From Tribonema minus (lineage: Eukaryota > Sar > Xanthophyceae > Tribonematales > Tribonemataceae), in assembly GCA_017506865.1 (NCBI GenBank), contig JAFCMP010000531.1:62001-126000 (forward strand): a stretch of DNA of 64,000 bases, given 5' to 3'. Position 1 is the first letter of the stretch; the number at the start of each line of letters is the position of its first letter. The notes under the pieces were generated by a model. The model searched no databases. It had not been told where the DNA came from and worked only from the letters and a program-made list of their open reading frames with translations. Positions 684 through 20,511 of the stretch are shown here, piece by piece. The position numbers and the translations under genes were made by a program.

Positions 684-795
684 GTACTTTTTATTAATTC
701 TCGCTCAGGGCGCGAAAAAGCCCAGATGATTGGCATCTAGCTGTAAGGAATCTACATGTCGTATGACAGTATGAAAGTGTCGCAACGACAACCAC

Positions 796-3700
796 TCAAA
801 CGCCGCCGCCGCCAAATGGCATCTCGGGGTCCTCCCCTACGTCCTCCTCCATGTGCCCCCCCCCCCTGGATTCTGCCATGTGTGTCATGACACGGCCAGA
901 GTACGCCATGTGGAGCGCTGCCGACAGTGCCGAGCGTAAGCGCGCCAGGGCGATGCCCTTGAGAGCTTTAGGGCGCGCTCCTCCGGGCACTGACATCCTG
1001 CTGGCATACTCCGTCGCCACAGCCTCCAGCAGCTTCCGCCCCTGCTCCCCGATGCTGCCAAATGACCCTATTGCCACAAAGTGGCAAGTTTGTAGCAATT
1101 CTGATCATAATGACCAGAGTAGTGGGTAGTCTTGGCGGCCTCTTGGTCGCGGCAGCATCGCTCGGGGTCTGCTGCAGTCTTCGCCGCCCGCGACGCCACC
1201 TGTGCCTCGAAGCAGGTAACGTCCACCATGAGCGGTAGGTGGCGTGTCGGGTCGTCGTAGCCGGTCACCGGGAAGGCGTCGGCAGGCAGCACGATGTCCA
1301 TCCTGCGACTCCCCGGCGGCCCGGCGGACCCCAGAAACGGCGTGTAGTCCTCGTCCACCAGTCCCGTTTTGAGGTATTGCCGCAAAATGCGCTGCGTGGC
1401 CCTCTTGACGCTATTGTGGACGATGGTGTCGTGCGCCTTGACGCGTGGCGCTTGACACAGCCGTGCATGCAGGGTGCCGCCCGGCGACTTCCCGCACAGC
1501 TTGCAAACTGCCGTCTGCTCCTCTACTCCGATGGCGCGTTTGACGGCCAGCTGCCAGGATAGGCCACCGAACGAAGCCGTTGTGGAGTACATGGGCTCGT
1601 TGAGGAATGCCATGCCGATCGAGTGCATGTGGCGCTGCGACCGGAATCGAGCAAGTGCTTGCGTGCGTTGCGTGCCCTGCGGCAGCTGTTGCAGGTCCGC
1701 CTCCACCTTATCTGCAAGCTCGGTAGCGACGGCATCTGCAAGCGCACTCTGATTGGGGCGCTTCAGGCTACACTGCAACTGCAGAGCACTGGCGTCAAGT
1801 ACGCAAGCAGCATCCGCACCAGTGCCACCACCTGCTGTCGGCCGCAGCGGCGGCTGCTGCGTAGGTGGTTGCTGCTGCAGTGGCGTTAGCGCTGGTGGCA
1901 GTATATGTTCCAGCTTGTCACCTGTTGCTGCACGTAGAGATGTGGCAGCTGTGGCGATCGTCCGCATGAGGGGCAGGCGCACCACCTCTGCTGCTGCTGC
2001 GCCTTGTAGCATTGCTGGTGTGGAACGCGCAGCGCCTGCATTGATGGCTGCCGCTGCTGCGTGCGCTGGTGCTGCAGCTGCGCCGCCTGCCGTTGCTGCT
2101 GCTGCCAGTGGTGTTGCTGCTGCCGCAGGTGTTGGTGCAGCACCTGCCGCATTGGCCGCTGCCACCGCCATTGCCGCTGTCGCAGCCGGCACGGTTGCGG
2201 CGCCGCCTGCCGACGCTGCTCCTGTTGCAGGTGCTGCAGCAGCCCTTAGGCTAGTAGGGCCTGTAGCAGCTGTGTTGCCTATGCCCGCAGCCGCTGCTGT
2301 TGATGCTGCAGTTAGTGATGCCGCCGAGGCCACTTGAGGTGCAACATGTGCTGCCGCTGCTGCAGCAGCCTCTGATGCTGGAGCAGCTGCTGCTGCCGCC
2401 GCTGCTGCTGCCGCCGGAGTAGTTGCGCCGTGCGCCGCCGCTGCTGCTGCTGCCGCTGGTGCCGCCTGTGCTGCCGCCGCGGCCCCTGATCCAGCGGCAG
2501 CTGCGTCGTGTGTTGCCGGAATGGCTGCGCCATAAGCGCGGCCAGCCGCTGATGCAGTTGCCGCTGCCGGAGCGGTCGCGCCTCCACTGGCAACCGCCGC
2601 TGCCGCTGTAACAGTTGCCGCTGCTGATGCTGCTGGTGCTGGTGCTGCTGCCGTTGCTGCCGGTGCCGCTTGTGTTGCCGCATCCTCAGCAGCGTTGTCT
2701 GCAGCCGCTTGAGGAGCCGCCTGCTGCAGCACCCCCGCCCATCCAGAGAGTGCTGGTTGCAGCGCTTGCAACGTGCCCGCCACATACGCAGCATCAGCGA
2801 TGTCGCAGGCGCTGGTAATGCCAAGGCCGCCATGCCGTGTTGGGAGTCGCGCTTGCTGTAAGGCTGGGCCGTGCGCTGCCAGATGGAAGTGGGCCCCACT
2901 TTGCTCAAACTGGCGCCAGGTCTGGCCTGGTGGCTGCAGGCCCATTGAGTGCTCAAGCACCCACTGCGTGACCCGATCCCACTCCTTGGCGGCTGGCGCT
3001 GTCTGCGTAGTGGGAATGGTGCGCAGGCAGTACGTCATGCGAGGCACCACGCAGTAGCGCAGTAACCTGAACATAGCCCTCGGAGATGTCAGGCGCGCGC
3101 ATCGCTCTGCAAATCGAGCCCCTGCCCCGCCTGCACCCGCTTCCCTGCGCAGCCATGCGTCCACAAAGCTGCTGTGGCCCACCGGCACCCCCAGCAACAC
3201 AGCTCCACGGTTCTGATTTTCATCCGTATCCCCCACTAGCTGAACGCCCAGCTGCTGCAGCAGTTGCCGCTCGTGGTCTGTCACCACATGCCCCCTGCCA
3301 GGCAGCGCGCGTGACTTGGTGAGGTTTAGCTCCAGCCCCACCTCCGCAAAGTGTTGTTTGAGCTGCGCCACCGCCTGTATGTCATCCTGAGTCAGCGTGC
3401 AAGCGCCTGTTCGGACGTTGGCATCGTCCATGTAGGCGCCCATCCGCCTCCGCGCGCGCTGCGCGGCCGCCGCCTCATTGAACCGTTTCAAGCACTGAGC
3501 AATGGCGCCGCAGAAGAGCATCGGTGCCGCGGGGTCCCCCTGCTTAAACCCGCGCTGAGACATGATGATGCGCGTGGCGCCGTCGACGTGCTGGAACAGC
3601 AGGCGTGGCCGAGTGCGAACGTATGTGCCGATGAAGTAGTCGAGGAAGTCCGGCAGCTGTGCTGCTACCCATTCCGCTGCCGCCAGGACGAACACCATGT

Positions 3701-4790
3701 TGAAGGCATTCTTGAGGTCCAGCATGAACTGCCAGTGACCGAGCTCATACGCGAGTTTGCCGGCCATGGCCGCTTTCTCCGCTCCTGCTGAGACGGCTAC
3801 CCCATACTGCCCGTCTGGCTCAAGGAGCTCCGCCAGGAAGTCTTTGCGGTCTGCCACGTACACCGAAGTGCATAGTCGCTGCAGCACCTCGCTGCAAACG
3901 ATGGGCCGCTGCTTAGCTGTACCATCTTCCTGTTGTTCTGCAAGTGGCGTCAGGCGCCCCGCGCCATGCAACTGCCAGAAGGCATCCGGCAGCCGCGCAG
4001 CCTCCCGCATAACGGTCTGAAGCCACCGTGTGAGGACAGCAGCAAACTCATGCCGTCCCCAGCTTGTGCGTAGCGCATCCTGCAGGTGGCTGTAGCGCAG
4101 CCCCGATGGGCCTGCTCCACTGTAAGGGCTTGCTCGCTGGATGAGCTTGGCAACCGTCTCTGGCTCAATTCCCTCCCCCTGTAACAGGCTGAGTTCTGCT
4201 GGCATGTCGGCTGCTTTCGCCACAAGCTGATCAACCATGCCGGATAGCTCATGGAGTTGTTCCCCTGGCGCAGCGGGGGGGTGTTTGGACTGCATGGCGG
4301 CAAAGCAGTCATCATCAGGTATCGCCACCGTTTTGGGCTGAAGGAAACGCGCTGCCTGCTGTAGCCCCCCCCGTGTGCCCATGCACTGTAGGACGTAGGC
4401 GTTGATCGCTGCCTCCGTTTGCTGGCGCGCGCGCCAGCGCCGGTGCGCACGCGCGTGTGCGAGGAGCGCTGGCACCAACCGGTCAAGCTCACCGCGTGCC
4501 AACTTTCTGATTCTGTCGGAGCGAGTGATGCCAGGTGCGCCATCGGTGGAGGTGATGAGTGATGGCATGAGGTGGTGTAGAATCGTGGATCTTTGCAGTC
4601 CCTGCACCCGCCCTGCGGAATCTGGCTCCCGCGCCGCATTGACGAACATCGTCATTGTGTGTGCCAACAGATGTGTTGCTGCGTTCTCCAGTGCAGCTCC
4701 CACATAGCGACGATTGCGTGGTCTAGCAAGGCTTCTAGTTGTCGCGAACTGCAGCTTGCACAGCTCATCGAGGCTGATGCTGTCAAGCAC
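796..4790 (-). pseudogene. Retrotransposon polyprotein: reverse transcriptase + CCHC + restriction-like endonuclease (frameshifted)
   Basis: The main frame (4790 to 1068) encodes 1240 residues. Reverse transcriptase motifs are A (FMLDLKNAF, Asp358), B (QRGFKQGDPAAP, about 412-423), C (AYMDD, 452-456) and D (LNLTKS), ending with the thumb-type motif LPTRHGGLGI near 649. An Ala-rich low-complexity insert follows (about 690-985). Next comes a Cys-Cys-His-Cys knuckle starting CKLCG at 1096, then a PD-(D/E)XK-like nuclease: RMD (1163-1165), VDVT with Asp1190, Lys1220. This order (RT, CCHC, RLE) is that of R2/NeSL-type LINEs that cut a preferred site. The frame stops at 1068, but the family-typical C-terminus continues in another frame (1098 to 796, about 90 residues), so a frameshift lies near 1085-1110. 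No N-terminal zinc fingers are seen. Motif C is YMDD rather than the YADD usual in LINEs. Confidence 0.85.
1880..2720 (-). repeat. Degenerate GCN (alanine) trinucleotide tract inside the retrotransposon ORF
   Basis: About 840 bp of imperfect GCN repeats encode an Ala-rich linker of roughly 290 residues between the RT thumb and the endonuclease. The bias also opens frames on the opposite strand, and those are artefacts. Length and purity suggest slippage-driven expansion. Confidence 0.8.
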
Positions 4791-15010: not shown

Positions 15011-16190
15011 GGTGGCGCGGACCGAGCGCGCTGCTGTGTGCTCGCGCGAGCTGTCACTGGCGGTGCATTGGTGGAGTGCTGCTGTGCCCCAACTTGAGCC
15101 GCCAAAGTTGCCGCCGCGCCTACTGCGCCCTGCTGCGCAGCTGCACCCTCTGCCTGCGTGCCATTGCCATGCTGGCATCCTCCTGCTCCCCTGCTAGTTG
15201 AGCGCTGCTGTGCACCGCTGGCGTGTCAAAACTGTGCTGTGATGATGCACAACGAGTTCAAAACCGCAAGATTGTGTTTGAAATTTGCCTCAAATTCAAG
15301 TGACACACACATTGTGGTTTACATGGGTCAAGGCAATGGGTTCTTCCAAGCTTTGTTTTTGCAGTACCTAGTGGACAACGCCTACTGAGTCACATGAGCA
15401 GAGTACACCATCCGAATCATTCATATATGATATGTCTACAAGACGCACGCTGTTGGCTCAAGCAGCTGAGCAGACGAGAAGAAGCAAGCAGCAAGCAGAC
15501 ACTGCATCACAGGTATGCATGGTGTAACATCTGTCGGTTGAAACAAAATCTTTTAATTCTCATGCGGTGGGGGGCTGCAGTCATGTGCACCACGCAACAG
15601 GGGGTGCATCAGATACCTTACTTTCATGCGAGATGCACTTTCCCGACATGACTTCACGGCTCACAGAGTGTGCGTACACACCAGGCAAGTTGCGGCCAAT
15701 CAGAATGTGCCTCGATTCCTCCGCTCAAAGGCCTTCTTGAGTTGAGTGCGTGAGAGCCTCGTCACTCTCTGTGCTTCAGTAGGCGATATCGGGTCATGGT
15801 CTGATGTCAGTGTGATGTAGCCAGCTAGTGTATGTCACAGCCTCTCTGATTAGTATGTCGCAACATGCGCTGTTAAGAGAGGAAAATGACACCAAGAAAT
15901 GTGGGATCAGAAATTCTGGTCAGTATGATGGAAGGACGTGAGTGAAGCCTGGCACCAACTACATGCATATTGCGTGGTACTAAAAACGAAGGTAGTCATT
16001 TGCCATGCCGCAGTGACTGTATCTGCTTAATCGACCCCTTGCAGCACTTCTAGCTTGCTTTGAGTACCATGATACTGGCAAAGTTTTGATGCTGGCAGCA
16101 GCAGCACAATCCCACTTGCTGCACAATGTTGGCCACAATCACAGGCGACTATGACGGTCACACGCAACAGTACTATGTAAGTACATCTTG

Positions 16191-16503
16191 ATGTCAGTGC
16201 CCGGAGGAGCGCGCCCTAAAGCTCTCAAGGGCATCGCCCTGGCGCGCTTACGCTCGGCACTGTCGGCAGCGCTCCACATGGCGTACTCTGGCCGTGTCAT
16301 GACACACATGGCAGAATCCAGGGGGGGGGGGCACATGGAGGAGGACGTAGGGGAGGACCCCGAGATGCCATTTGGCGGCGGCGGCGTTTGAGTGGTTGTC
16401 GTTGCGACACTTTCAGACTGTCATACGACATGTAGATTCCTTACAGCTAGATGCCAATCATCTGGGCTTTTTCGCGCCCTGAGCGAGAATTAATAAAAAG
16501 TAC
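16191..16503 (+). repeat. 5'-truncated copy of the LINE 3' end (inverted relative to 684-996)
   Basis: 313 bp nearly identical to the reverse complement of 684-996: the end of the pol frame after the frameshift, a G-run, the GGGCTTTTTCGCGCCC hairpin and AATAAAAAGTAC at 16503. It entered the first segmental unit near a GTAC (about 16182), and its own 3' GTAC became the insertion point of the next element. Confidence 0.85.
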
Positions 16504-16670
16504 TTATGATCTTGTATTTATAGCAGCCCCAAGGTGGGCTTGATGCGTTGGATAAGAATGCAAAAAACTAAAATCGGACGGGCCCTTAGAGCCCTGCGTT
16601 GCAGGCTTGTACTAGACTCATGGGGGGCAGACACAGCGGCACCCAGTCTGAGCCACACCTATCGTAGCCG

Positions 16671-17380
16671 ATGTCTCCATCTCTTGAGCGAAAACGCCGG
16701 AGGACCGCGGTTATGCCTCTAGTATACATTTGGGCCAGAGGCGCCCGGTCCTCGATTCCTTGCCTAAGCACGCCGCTGACGTGCCTGGCCGAGGTTCTCT
16801 TTCTTGCGTGTTCAAGCAAACGATCTACAGTGTGCCCTGATGCTATCCGTATCCCCATGTTCCAATATCCCCTGCTGCTGCCCAAAGCCGTATCCTCACC
16901 ACACGCGACTCCGCAGCTCCTGCTCACAGCCAGCATCTCCCATCCCCTTGCTGCCTGATGCACCCTCGCCACCATCAGCGCCACCGCGAGTGCTGCCGCA
17001 CCTCTCGGTGCTAACGAGCAGTATAATGTCTCCATCTCTTGAGCGAAAACGCCGGAGGACCGCGGTTATGCCTCTAGTATACATTTGGGCCAGAGGCGCC
17101 CGGTCCTCGATTCCTTGCCTAAGCACGCCGCTGACGTGCCTGGCCGAGGTTCTCTTTCTTGCGTGTTCAAGCAAACGATCTACAGTGTGCCCTGATGCTA
17201 TCCGTATCCCCATGTTCCAATATCCCCTGCTGCTGCCCAAAGCCGTATCCTCACCACACGCGACTCCGCAGCTCCTGCTCACAGCCAGCATCTCCCATCC
17301 CCTTGCTGCCTGATGCACCCTCGCCACCATCAGCGCCACCGCGAGTGCTGCCGCACCTCTCGGTGCTAACGAGCAGTATA
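16671..17380 (+). repeat. 355-bp tandem duplication at the 5' part of the non-autonomous element
   Basis: Units 16671-17025 and 17026-17380 are essentially identical, both beginning ATGTCTCCATCTCTTGAGCG and ending TAACGAGCAGTATA. The first 72 bp of the unit also occur in the leader of the full-length element (about 5015-4944). The position resembles the promoter monomers of some LINE 5' UTRs. Confidence 0.9.
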
Positions 17381-17718
17381 TATACTTGTACATCTTACCA
17401 TGGTGGACCGCAGCATTGTGACACTTTGAACCGCAAGTACAAGCTCGCCAACATCGAAAGGTGTGGCAGCGCCATGAAGTGGAGGGTGGGGGCTGCTTGT
17501 CTGGCGCGCCTAGCATGTTTCACCAGCCATGGTGCATCTGGCGCGCCGCAGCAGCACCTGCCACATTTCAGCCGCGCATTTGGAGCCCCTTATCACACAG
17601 CACCAGCAGGCCAGAGGAGCATTACGTTCGAGCTCGCGGCATCGGCAAGGACATGGAAAGCTTTGCAGTTCGCCTCTCAAGCAGCACGAGCAGCTACTTC
17701 CCTCCCCTCACGCCACCC

Positions 17719-18476
17719 AAGGATACTATCTTCGGGCCTTTTGGCACCGTTGATTGTCATACCAATTGCTCTTCGAGCTGATCCGTGGCTGAAGCAGAAG
17801 GAGTGGGGCTCATGCAGCTGTGCGCAGCTGCTGCAGACTACGCCTGCTCGGCCGTCGCCAGGGCTCGTGCCTTTTCCGCCATGTGCCGACCAACCTGCGC
17901 TTGAAGTTCGCCACCAAGGACACTATCCCGGGGCTTCACGGCACCCTGGATTGTTGACCCTACTCCTATGGAGTGTTGTTCGTGTGGCGGCAAACCGCAG
18001 CTTCTGCTGGCACCTCTGGCCCCGACTGCTGCATCGGCGACTGTGGACATCGGACCTGCGCTGCCTCCACCAGCACTTGCCGCCGTACACCGCATTTGCT
18101 GCCCCAGCACCTCACATCTGGACACTATCTTGGGACCTAGCGGTACCCTTGCTTGTTGTTACACACACTCTTTCAGAGTCTTGTCCGTGGGGAGGGTCAG
18201 CGATGCGGCGACGGCGCAGGCAGGTGGCGGCTTCGCCTGCTTGGTGGCCTACGCCGACGCAGCGACCGAGTGTCAAGCCTGCTGCCTGCTGCGGCAAGAT
18301 CATCGACGCGAACACCAACACCTGCAACCACACCGTCGAAGACCGGAGCCTATCCGCCGCCGTCCCTGCCGCCGGCGATGGCGCACGCCTTCAACCCACA
18401 ACCGACACAAGGACACTATCTTGGGGCCTCGCGGCACCCTTGATTGTTAGTCATACAACTCTGCGGAGTGTTGTCC
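17719..18476 (+). repeat. Four copies of a ~66-nt three-helix structured repeat (possible RNA element)
   Basis: Copies start at 17721, 17918, 18120 and 18411. Each has an outer helix P1 and two hairpins, P2 and P3. P1: GGAT/ATCC in copy 1 (17721-17724 with 17781-17784), GGACA/TGTTC in copy 2, GGACA/TGTCC in copies 3 and 4. P2 has a 4-nt loop and a bulged A: CGG-GCC/GGC-CCG, GGG-GCT/GGC-CCC, GGG-ACC/GGT-CCC, GGG-GCC/GGC-CCC. P3: GCTC/GAGC, ACTCC/GGAGT, ACTCT/AGAGT, ACTC/GAGT. The paired positions change together while ACTATC, the bulged A and TTG(A/C)TTGT stay nearly constant. That pattern suggests selection on RNA (or single-stranded DNA) folding. The copies could also encode a short peptide motif (KDTILGPRGTLDC); three of the four share one frame. 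Confidence 0.65.
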
Positions 18477-18737
18477 AAGGCATGTGGTTAGAGAGCGGCG
18501 CCTGTGCGCGGCGACGGGGCAGGCGGCGGCAGCTGCTTGGCGGGAGCGGCGCGGAGGAGCAGGAGCAGGAGCAGCAGGAGGAAGGAGTTCGCAGCAGGGG
18601 TTCCTGTGTGCGGCCGGGGACACCGGGGGGGGTAACACTAGCAAATAGAAGGGCGGGTTTTAGTAGATATGCTTGCTGGAGTGACAGCATCAGCCTTTGC
18701 AGCACCAGTGCCTGGCACTTAGTGATCCATGACCATT

Positions 18738-19089
18738 GTCCTCAGTTCTGGGCGCTGCTACCAGTAGCCCAGGCCTGCACAAAGCTGTTCACGGTTAGGA
18801 CCATTTTGGCAGAGACACGGGAGGCCTCAAAGTGGGTCTGGTCGTGTAGAGGCAGTAGCTTAGGCACTTTGGAGCAGCATGATAGTGGGGACCGATCGGG
18901 GTTTGGGTGGGGTTTGTTGGGGTTGGGTTGGACTCTTCGTAGCAACAGCATTGATACCCTTAGCACCAGTGCCTGGTGCCCAGTGATCATTTTGCCTAGA
19001 GGCGTGATTCAGACGTGTCAGCATGGTCCTCAGTTCTGGGCGCTGTCAAAGGCGACCCAGGCCTGCATAAATCTTTTTCAAGACGGGAC
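18738..19089 (+). repeat. Two copies of a second structured repeat
   Basis: Copy 1 (18738-18801) and copy 2 (19026-19089) share GTCCTCAGTTCTGGGCGCTG and CCAGGCCTGCA. In both an outer helix can form (GTCCT with AGGAC; GTCCT with GGGAC, the change being A-T to G-T) around an inner CTGGG/CCCAG helix. Upstream of each lies a conserved CACCAGTGCCTGG box. The function is unknown; both precede the 3' end of the element. Confidence 0.55.
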
Positions 19090-20511
19090 AAGTGTGCCTC
19101 ACGGCTGGGCAACCCTAAGTAGGGTTTGGTTGTGGGGTGTTGGTGGTAGTGTGAGGAGGGGGAAGCCTGTTTGCGGTTGAGTCTCTCTTCGGAGAAGGAA
19201 TGTTGCATTGAGTGCACATCCAAAGAGAGGGCTTTTCGCGCCCCTTGCGAAGCGAAATCAATAAAAGTACAAGCGCTGTCATGCTGCATGTCAGTGAAAG
19301 CCAGCCAATACAGTACTCATGCATCATGCGTGCATACCAATTGATATACTTCTTGAAGTACATACTTGCATACCTACATGTGATTTGGAAGCTTCAAAAC
19401 GTATTCGGTCCTGATTGCTTTTTTGTCAACTCGAGCTTCAAAACACAGTCAGAGACCATAATTTAGTAGGCTAAGCTGTCAACACGAGCTTCAAAACTCT
19501 CATCAGCAAACATAATTTAGTAGGCCAAGCTTTGCAGCACATGTATAGAGTGACTCATTAGCGCCCAGCTCCGAGCAAATCAGCATACTGGTAAGCTACT
19601 TGCTAGATGAGGTACATGTGTATTACTGCACGGCAGACCTTCGTCATACGTTCACAACTGATTTCAAACATGAAAGTGTTACAGATGCCACCCATGGCGT
19701 ACCTCTCTAATTGACAAAGTGTCAAAGTGCAGGAGGGGAAGAGTGGCAACTTGAAGAGCACGGACGACCACTGGAGACAACTTGAAGTTCATGCCATGAA
19801 GTTTGCTGCTAACGTCTGGCCAGCGACAGCTCTGAAGCAGAAGACAGGGAGAGAGATAGGCAGCACAAAGCAGTCAGGAGGAAATCCATGTTTTGCAAAT
19901 CACGAAGCTATCGCTCAAGGCAGCCAGGCTGTGGTCGAGACTTGTGTCGCAGGAAAACAAAATGTGCATACATACAGAGTACATGCTCAACGCCAATCAA
20001 CAGACAGTGTCATTTGTCATGTCCAAGTCAGTCTTGCAACTGTAAAATCATCCCAATGCAGGTCAATGAATGTCTTTAGCCTGATAGCGGCGCAATGTTC
20101 TTCTTGTTTTGGTCAAGCGGAGAGCATGCGCGGTGTGATGGCTATGCATACCTCCATGCACGTATGCTTTGATTTGACAATGCAGCTGGCCAGGTAGTAC
20201 AACGGCCAGCGTTGGCATCAAAGAGGTGCTTTCACTGGGTAGATGCTCCACTTAAAGGGGAATGGGCTATGCTGTCTTGTCTCTACTTGAGCCGGCAAAA
20301 CACCAAATCACAGTGACGCTGCAATGGCCCCAAAAGTCCTCCAGTCTGGGTGACACATCTGCGCAAACCTATTGAGGACACCCTGCTTTCATCCAATGGC
20401 GCGCAAGTGCAATAGGTTGGTCCCTCAGTAGCTGCTCCTGTGCTGTTATCGCTGCTGCTGTCTCTGTGTGCTAGCAGTAAAACTGGTTCCCACAGCAGTG
20501 GCGGCAGGTCC

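Follow-up and report, generated by a model that had tools for sequence, protein, structure and literature searches.

A four-copy candidate RNA fold in a probable LINE-mobilised retroposon of Tribonema minus

Within the 64,000 nucleotides of Tribonema minus DNA analysed here (the window), one short region holds four similar segments that could all fold in the same way, with paired bases that differ from copy to copy. The locus raises the question of what kind of element carries these segments, and whether they are kept as an RNA structure. The original prediction read them as a structured RNA domain, possibly a new one, in a retroelement. A repeat search of positions 17400-18800 recovered them as a single four-copy family with starts at 17718, 17915, 18117 and 18408 (spacing 197, 202 and 291), a core of 56 nt and 61-79% identity to the reference. 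We term the repeated segment domain X and its carrier unit A (Table 1). Whole copies of X measure 64-67 nt, counted from the GGA of helix P1 through the last C of P1.

Table 1. Features of the window discussed in the text
Feature	Position	Strand	Remarks
Putative partner LINE	684..4790	-	ORF at 1068-4790 with RVT_1; tail end at 684
Probable 5'-truncated LINE copy, 3' end only	16190..16503	+	314-bp block
Family D element	16500..17380	-	Same head as unit A; perfect 355-bp tandem duplication
Unit A, probable non-autonomous retroposon carrying the X repeats	17442..19271	+	1830-bp block in fetched genomic regions
5' head hairpin with GNRA loop	17443..17470	+	Common to families A, B and D
Open frame of 568 codons	17474..19180	+	Starts at the first ATG that follows the head; no Pfam match
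Domain X, copy 1	17721..17784	+	P2 17733-17749, P3 17768-17778
Domain X, copy 2	17918..17981	+	P2 17930-17946, P3 17962-17974; frame differs from copies 1, 3 and 4
Domain X, copy 3	18120..18186	+	P2 18132-18148, P3 18167-18179
Domain X, copy 4	18411..18476	+	P2 18423-18439, P3 18458-18469
Module Y, copy 1	18734..18789	+	Second repeated module
Module Y, copy 2	19022..19077	+	Second repeated module
3' tail of unit A, common to the LINE	19229..19271	+	Sequence comparison by eye

Unit A, its putative partner LINE and related families

A search of the T. minus genome (158 Mb in 554 contigs) with positions 17719-18476 gave 134 candidates, and the 40 that were scored showed 98-100% identity. Protein hits (P0003-P0005) likewise name T. 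minus, a yellow-green alga of the xanthophyte stramenopiles. The complete block of unit A recurs at 97-99.8% identity in 15 genomic regions of 10 kb, in 13 of them as a single end-to-end alignment, and the near-identity of these copies argues that they are recent. Unit A terminates in AATAAAAGTACA, the final GTACA of which overlaps the flanking repeat. At the 5' end, other copies start at about TTTTGCCCCCCC(C)GG(G)GCC, a start that the window copy does not have; it lacks some 20 nt of the 5' leader (TTTTGCCCC...) present in those copies. The starting points of other A copies vary and lie inside the unit, as expected from 5' truncation. Direct repeats anchored on GTAC were found at both flanks in the manner of target-site duplications: among the 14 copies counted (L016, whose 3' end is altered, was excluded), they measured 6-15 nt in nine, three of these being at least 11 nt, and 4-5 nt in three, with none in the remaining two, and these counts carry no chance control. 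The long ORF of unit A gave no Pfam match and no recognisable reverse transcriptase, and judged on that ORF the unit has no such enzyme of its own. The expectation that the carrier is a retroelement was thus borne out by sharp unit ends, near-identical copies and GTAC-anchored flanking repeats. One diverged A copy (L028, 300-2010, minus strand) is short of 197 nt, a length equal to the distance between the first two X copies, and the P2 and P3 of its X copy 3 are separated by a 218-nt insert.

A putative partner LINE lies in the same window. Its ORF matches RVT_1 (E 9e-11, Pfam) and contains YMDD, an alanine-rich stretch after the reverse transcriptase and, at the C-terminus, a CCHC followed by R(x)DIVLP...VDVT, a stretch that we take to be a restriction-like endonuclease. 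Pfam gave no endonuclease in this ORF, and comparison with the wider NCBIfam and with PDB returned nothing useful. Compared by eye, the tail of unit A, GGGCTTTT(T)CGCGCCC ... AAT(T/C)AATAAAA(A)GTAC, resembles that of the LINE at 684 on the minus strand, GGGCTTTTTCGCGCCC...AATTAATAAAAAGTAC, with GGGCTTTT(T)CGCGCCC and AATAAAA(A)GTAC in both; GTAC is also present at the 3' junction of the window LINE. The 314-bp block near the family D element is probably a 5'-truncated LINE copy, because the minus-strand LINE of the window ends in the same block. Taken alone, the A tail is no more stable than shuffled sequences (z 0.19), and the LINE tail is somewhat more so (z -2.27). The anatomy of unit A, in its copies, ends, flanks and shared tail, is most simply explained by retroposition through target-primed reverse transcription, and unit A is very probably a LINE-mobilised retroposon.

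Behind the 5' leader, unit A begins with a head of the layout GCUCG-YYR-stem-GNRA-stem-GGCAGC, which is also found in two further families, B and D. The stem arms are ACATC/GGTGT in A, ACGCC/GGCGT in B and GCACC/GGTGC in D, and so covary between families, and the three heads fold alike (z -2.5 to -2.9). In A and B the ATG follows the end of the head after two or three bases, and selection on codons therefore cannot explain this covariation. A head pattern with a free stem gave 406 matches in the genome, those within tandem duplications being counted separately, and none for the reversed control. Among the matches listed, the stems are mainly those of A, B and D; C46:247289 and C57:559741 clearly depart from these, and a few show single changes. 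In region L017 (7639-8705), a family B element measures 1066 bp and includes a 319-bp tandem duplication. Genome-wide, family B gave 765 first-look candidates, and many of the 40 scored are 99-100% identical. Its 321-codon ORF has relatives in public collections, P0006 and P0007 (55% identity over the full length and 49% over 60%), and for this reason the family B protein may be real. The same family holds a stretch similar to Y twice, which makes Y common to A and B.

Canonical U6 5' ends contain GCUCG...GGCAGC, and an origin of the head from U6 was considered; it was dropped because the 5' end of the U6 match obtained differs. That match (G000:C8:68682-68794, in L022) was the only one above the cut-off among 47 candidates scored. 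It has an unusual 5' stem-loop, in which a GAAA loop is followed by UGGCAAC, and which loosely resembles the retroposon head.

The fold of domain X

All of the arms named in the original prediction are present in the four copies. P1 reads GGAT/ATCC in one copy, GGACA/TGTTC, with one G-U, in another, and GGACA/TGTCC in the other two. In 4/4 copies, P2 comprises six pairs closed by a 4-nt loop, with an A bulged out of the 3' strand. The P3 arms are GCTC/GAGC, ACTCC/GGAGT and ACTCT/AGAGT, and in copy 4 a shorter ACTC/GAGT with only a possible U-G to extend it. We aligned the copies by hand on the arms, taking 4 pairs for P1, 6 for P2 and 4 for P3 (14 pairs in four copies), and standard pairs occupied 56/56 cells, which confirms that the four copies share one fold. 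The words ACTATC and TTGATTGT, described in the original prediction as unpaired, may in fact be partners: AC-U-AUC can pair with GAU-U-GU and lengthen P2. The five extra pairs below P2 form in 28-30 of the 30 distinct rows of the genomic alignment considered below. In the window, copy 3 carries GCT for GAT, which breaks the extension; it is a variant, with C at a site where 13 of 17 aligned units have A.

Six of the 14 pairs vary, and four have changed on both sides: C-G/U-A in P1, G-C/C-G and G-C/A-U in P2, and A-U/G-C in P3. No pair is broken. When letters were permuted within columns, the result was p = 0.0038 (0.38% of 200,000 trials), and the claim that these are compensatory changes rather than plain identity therefore holds. 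In a MAFFT alignment confined to P1 and P2, 8/500 shuffles matched on four measures and 120/500 on the fifth, the number of pair types. In the corresponding P1 and P2 control, an offset of 1-3 columns between partners lowered pairing from 100% to 37.5-50%. The p values of 0.004-0.016 are modest and come from only four independent lineages, all within one element of one genome. Covariation beyond sequence conservation was accordingly found on four copies, a small sample.

Single copies of X fold 0.8 to 1.8 SD better than shuffled sequences (z -0.8 to -1.8), which is unremarkable. Within the full 1830-nt unit, the modelled pairing probability of P2 is 0.93-1.00 under three span limits. Those of P1 (0.02-0.94) and P3 (0.03-0.96) range widely, and both helices form weakly or not at all in several of the contexts folded. 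On these predictions, P2 is the solid part of the X fold.

A covariance model was built from the four copies and, at E <= 1e-6, recovered 76 copies from 20 sources, giving 30 distinct rows. A search of this kind had been proposed along with the original prediction. Standard pairs fill 96.5% of the cells of the 30-row alignment against 90.7% in shuffles, with 0/500 shuffles as high, but the rows are closely related derivatives of those four copies, and their relatedness inflates the contrast. Two of the five measures did not rise above shuffles (both-side changes, 163/500; pair types, 490/500). P3 pairs in 89.7% of this alignment. With up to 3 mismatches allowed, the X core matches 336 places genome-wide, and its reversed control 6. 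The exact core pattern had 0 matches in contigs of viruses and prokaryotes, and the viral contigs contained no relatives of the proteins P0001 (described below) or P0006. A pattern with P2 flipped, designed for diverged X outside family A, gave one chance-like match, and its reversed control four. DNA bearing X from another species was not found in these searches, which leaves the four paralogous lineages of a single genome as the basis for the claim of a new RNA domain; in support of that claim, the fold covaries and matches no Rfam family.

Selection on RNA structure and competing explanations

We consider it probable that X has been selected as an RNA structure. The copies might instead be merely diverged tandem duplicates, in which four GC-rich sequences have come to look compensatory by chance. 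Tandem modules are indeed common in these elements, as the duplications in B and D illustrate, the comparison involves only four sequences, and the z-scores of the X folds are ordinary. Chance of this kind is nevertheless hard to reconcile with the permutation result or with the few shuffles that matched the MAFFT alignment. In addition, a self-comparison of one unit recovers the X copies and, between the X spacers, one match only, of 28 nt, behind copies 3 and 4; the spacers are thus nearly without remaining similarity while X is still similar. We regard chance divergence as unlikely.

A similarly low probability attaches to the proposal that X is mainly a peptide repeat (KDTIxGPxGTLDC) derived from coding sequence, with pairing as a by-product of codon conservation. 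The 568-codon ORF lies within a 578-codon stop-free stretch, and under either of two Markov models 0/1000 simulations were as long. Public collections hold related proteins. P0001 (561 aa, JGI-sourced, from a 1958-base contig) shows 93% identity over 98% of the query, and P0002 (EukProt), with 95% identity over 23% of the query, follows the peptide frame through the third and fourth X copies. The latter may come from Tribonema itself, and its Trinity transcript name indicates that A or a close relative is transcribed. Calculated on the 39-nt X cores with six copy pairs pooled, pN/pS is 0.63 in the peptide frame, the third, against 1.27 in the long frame and 1.16 in the second. However, the long ORF reads X copies 1, 3 and 4 in the frame with the value of 1.27, and the spacing of the copies places copy 2 in a different frame from the others. 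In the peptide frame, copies 2 and 4 run straight into a stop, and copy 1 reaches one seven codons later. Pairing is nevertheless kept there, by the P3 and P1 3' arms past the stops in copies 2 and 4 and by the P1 arm that coincides with the stop in copy 1. Codon phases between the window unit and a diverged A copy are flat (26/33/29). Single-copy changes (n = 128) comprise 83 nonsynonymous, 37 synonymous and 8 stop, close to the 66/29.5/4.6% expected, and changes common to at least three copies comprise 7 nonsynonymous and 2 synonymous. Neither the phases nor the recent copies gave any sign of codon-level constraint on the ORF of A, even though its frame has stayed open. Purifying selection in a frame shared by all X copies, which would have made X a simple peptide repeat, was not found: the flat phases and the absence of a common frame oppose it, although one frame has the low pN/pS. 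Because no frame is common to the four copies and the codon phases are flat, a peptide repeat by itself does not explain X, and we rate selection on RNA above selection on peptide, since arms beyond the stops still pair. Peptide selection may contribute to the conservation of X.

Self-cleavage, one of the functions originally suggested, would make X a ribozyme that processes the retroposon RNA, a proposal to which the three-helix shape and conserved joining words lend some plausibility; ribozymes are present in other retroelements, the retrozymes (PMC4918200). Rfam, however, gave no match across the window at gathering scores, nor across unit A at E values up to 5. Known ribozyme covariance models were included, and the earlier remark that X does not match the hammerhead is upheld. 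Moreover, a template with four active cleavage sites would be fragmented, and 16/16 sources nevertheless hold the unit with all four X copies (17 units), and the joining words can pair. From the Rfam result and these intact units we judge a ribozyme very improbable. A resemblance to the SRP Alu domain, suggested by UGUNR after P2, was also considered and dropped, there being no Rfam match and no loop-loop complementarity by eye.

Possible mobilisation and comparison with known systems

Selection on RNA structure can be placed in a wider account, in which unit A is a LINE-mobilised, mRNA-like non-autonomous retroposon and X a protein-docking module; as a whole, this account could equally well prove right or wrong. 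The RNA of unit A would carry the 5' GNRA hairpin, four X folds and the 3' tail that the LINE also has. It would probably be a Pol II-type transcript, to judge by its ATG-led frame, its internal runs of TTTT and the AATAAA close to its end. Priming by the LINE reverse transcriptase would take place at GTAC sites, with copying of the RNA from the tail onwards, and in this way that LINE may mobilise unit A. The feature for which X is kept would be its RNA structure, above all the P2 hairpin with the bulged A and the loop of 4 nt, and the presence of X in four copies could give higher avidity for a LINE protein or a host RNA-binding protein; RNP assembly, export and translation are candidate stages for such docking. 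The window LINE appears to lack X, since across the window the covariance model matched nothing beyond the four X copies at E <= 1, and the bound protein would then be either one from the host that binds RNA or that of the LINE, making an unrelated contact. We put forward X as a multivalent docking module only tentatively. More doubtful still is the broader picture of a Tribonema retroposon family in which a GNRA head, with X four times and Y twice as multivalent docking sites, would allow elements to compete through tandem modules beyond the tail alone.

Most of what is known about the capture of LINE enzymes by non-autonomous retroposons comes from 3' tails and Alu. The Alu dimer, with two SRP Alu domains, is a retroposon RNA with a repeated protein-docking fold. 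Like it, unit A has more than one copy of a fold, with docking by X putative; unlike the SRP Alu domains of the dimer, X has no match in Rfam, SRP RNA included. Tailed SINEs form SINE/LINE pairs with a common 3' end. Unit A is much longer than these and bears an ORF, no tRNA gene was found in the window, and the TTTT runs and AATAAA signal suggest Pol II transcription, unlike that of tailed SINEs. A strict SINE would further have a Pol III promoter or a head derived from a small RNA; on this point, the observations are the lack of an Rfam match over unit A and of a tRNA in the window. Both tailed SINEs (PMC3747384) and unit A have a 3' tail shared with a LINE and flanking repeats. Retrozymes resemble unit A in being non-autonomous retroelements with an RNA motif; compared with the hammerhead retrozymes (PMC4918200), unit A has no hammerhead match, no LTRs were seen, and its ends are of the LINE type.

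The nearest parallel that we considered is RTEX-N1_Ec32 of the brown alga Ectocarpus, a LINE-dependent element of ~600 bp whose 3' end is shared and for whose 5' region no origin has been determined (PMC12477816). Unit A would function in the manner of this element and of tailed SINEs. Both elements are non-autonomous and abundant and share their 3' end with an autonomous LINE. At 1.83 kb, unit A is three times longer; the partner of RTEX-N1_Ec32 is RTE-X, and the putative partner of unit A is a LINE with RVT_1. Unit A also has a repeated RNA fold, a GNRA head and a long ORF, features that do not appear in the available part of the Ectocarpus description (PMC12477816). In the literature searched, the accessible portions of the sources gave no recognised account of X, of the head hairpin or of Tribonema retroposons. 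Transformation of Tribonema has been reported (PMC7139823), and a transformable alga with a high-copy, recent retroposon could show whether mobility gains from internal RNA modules. The 5' region of the Ectocarpus element (PMC12477816) may likewise become easier to interpret through the shared head hairpin. As a separate observation, L028 contains at 2892-2919 (plus strand) a fifth type of head, GCTCGTTGGCCCTGAAAGGTACGGCAGC followed by GCCATGAGGAGA, which perhaps belongs to a further element family.
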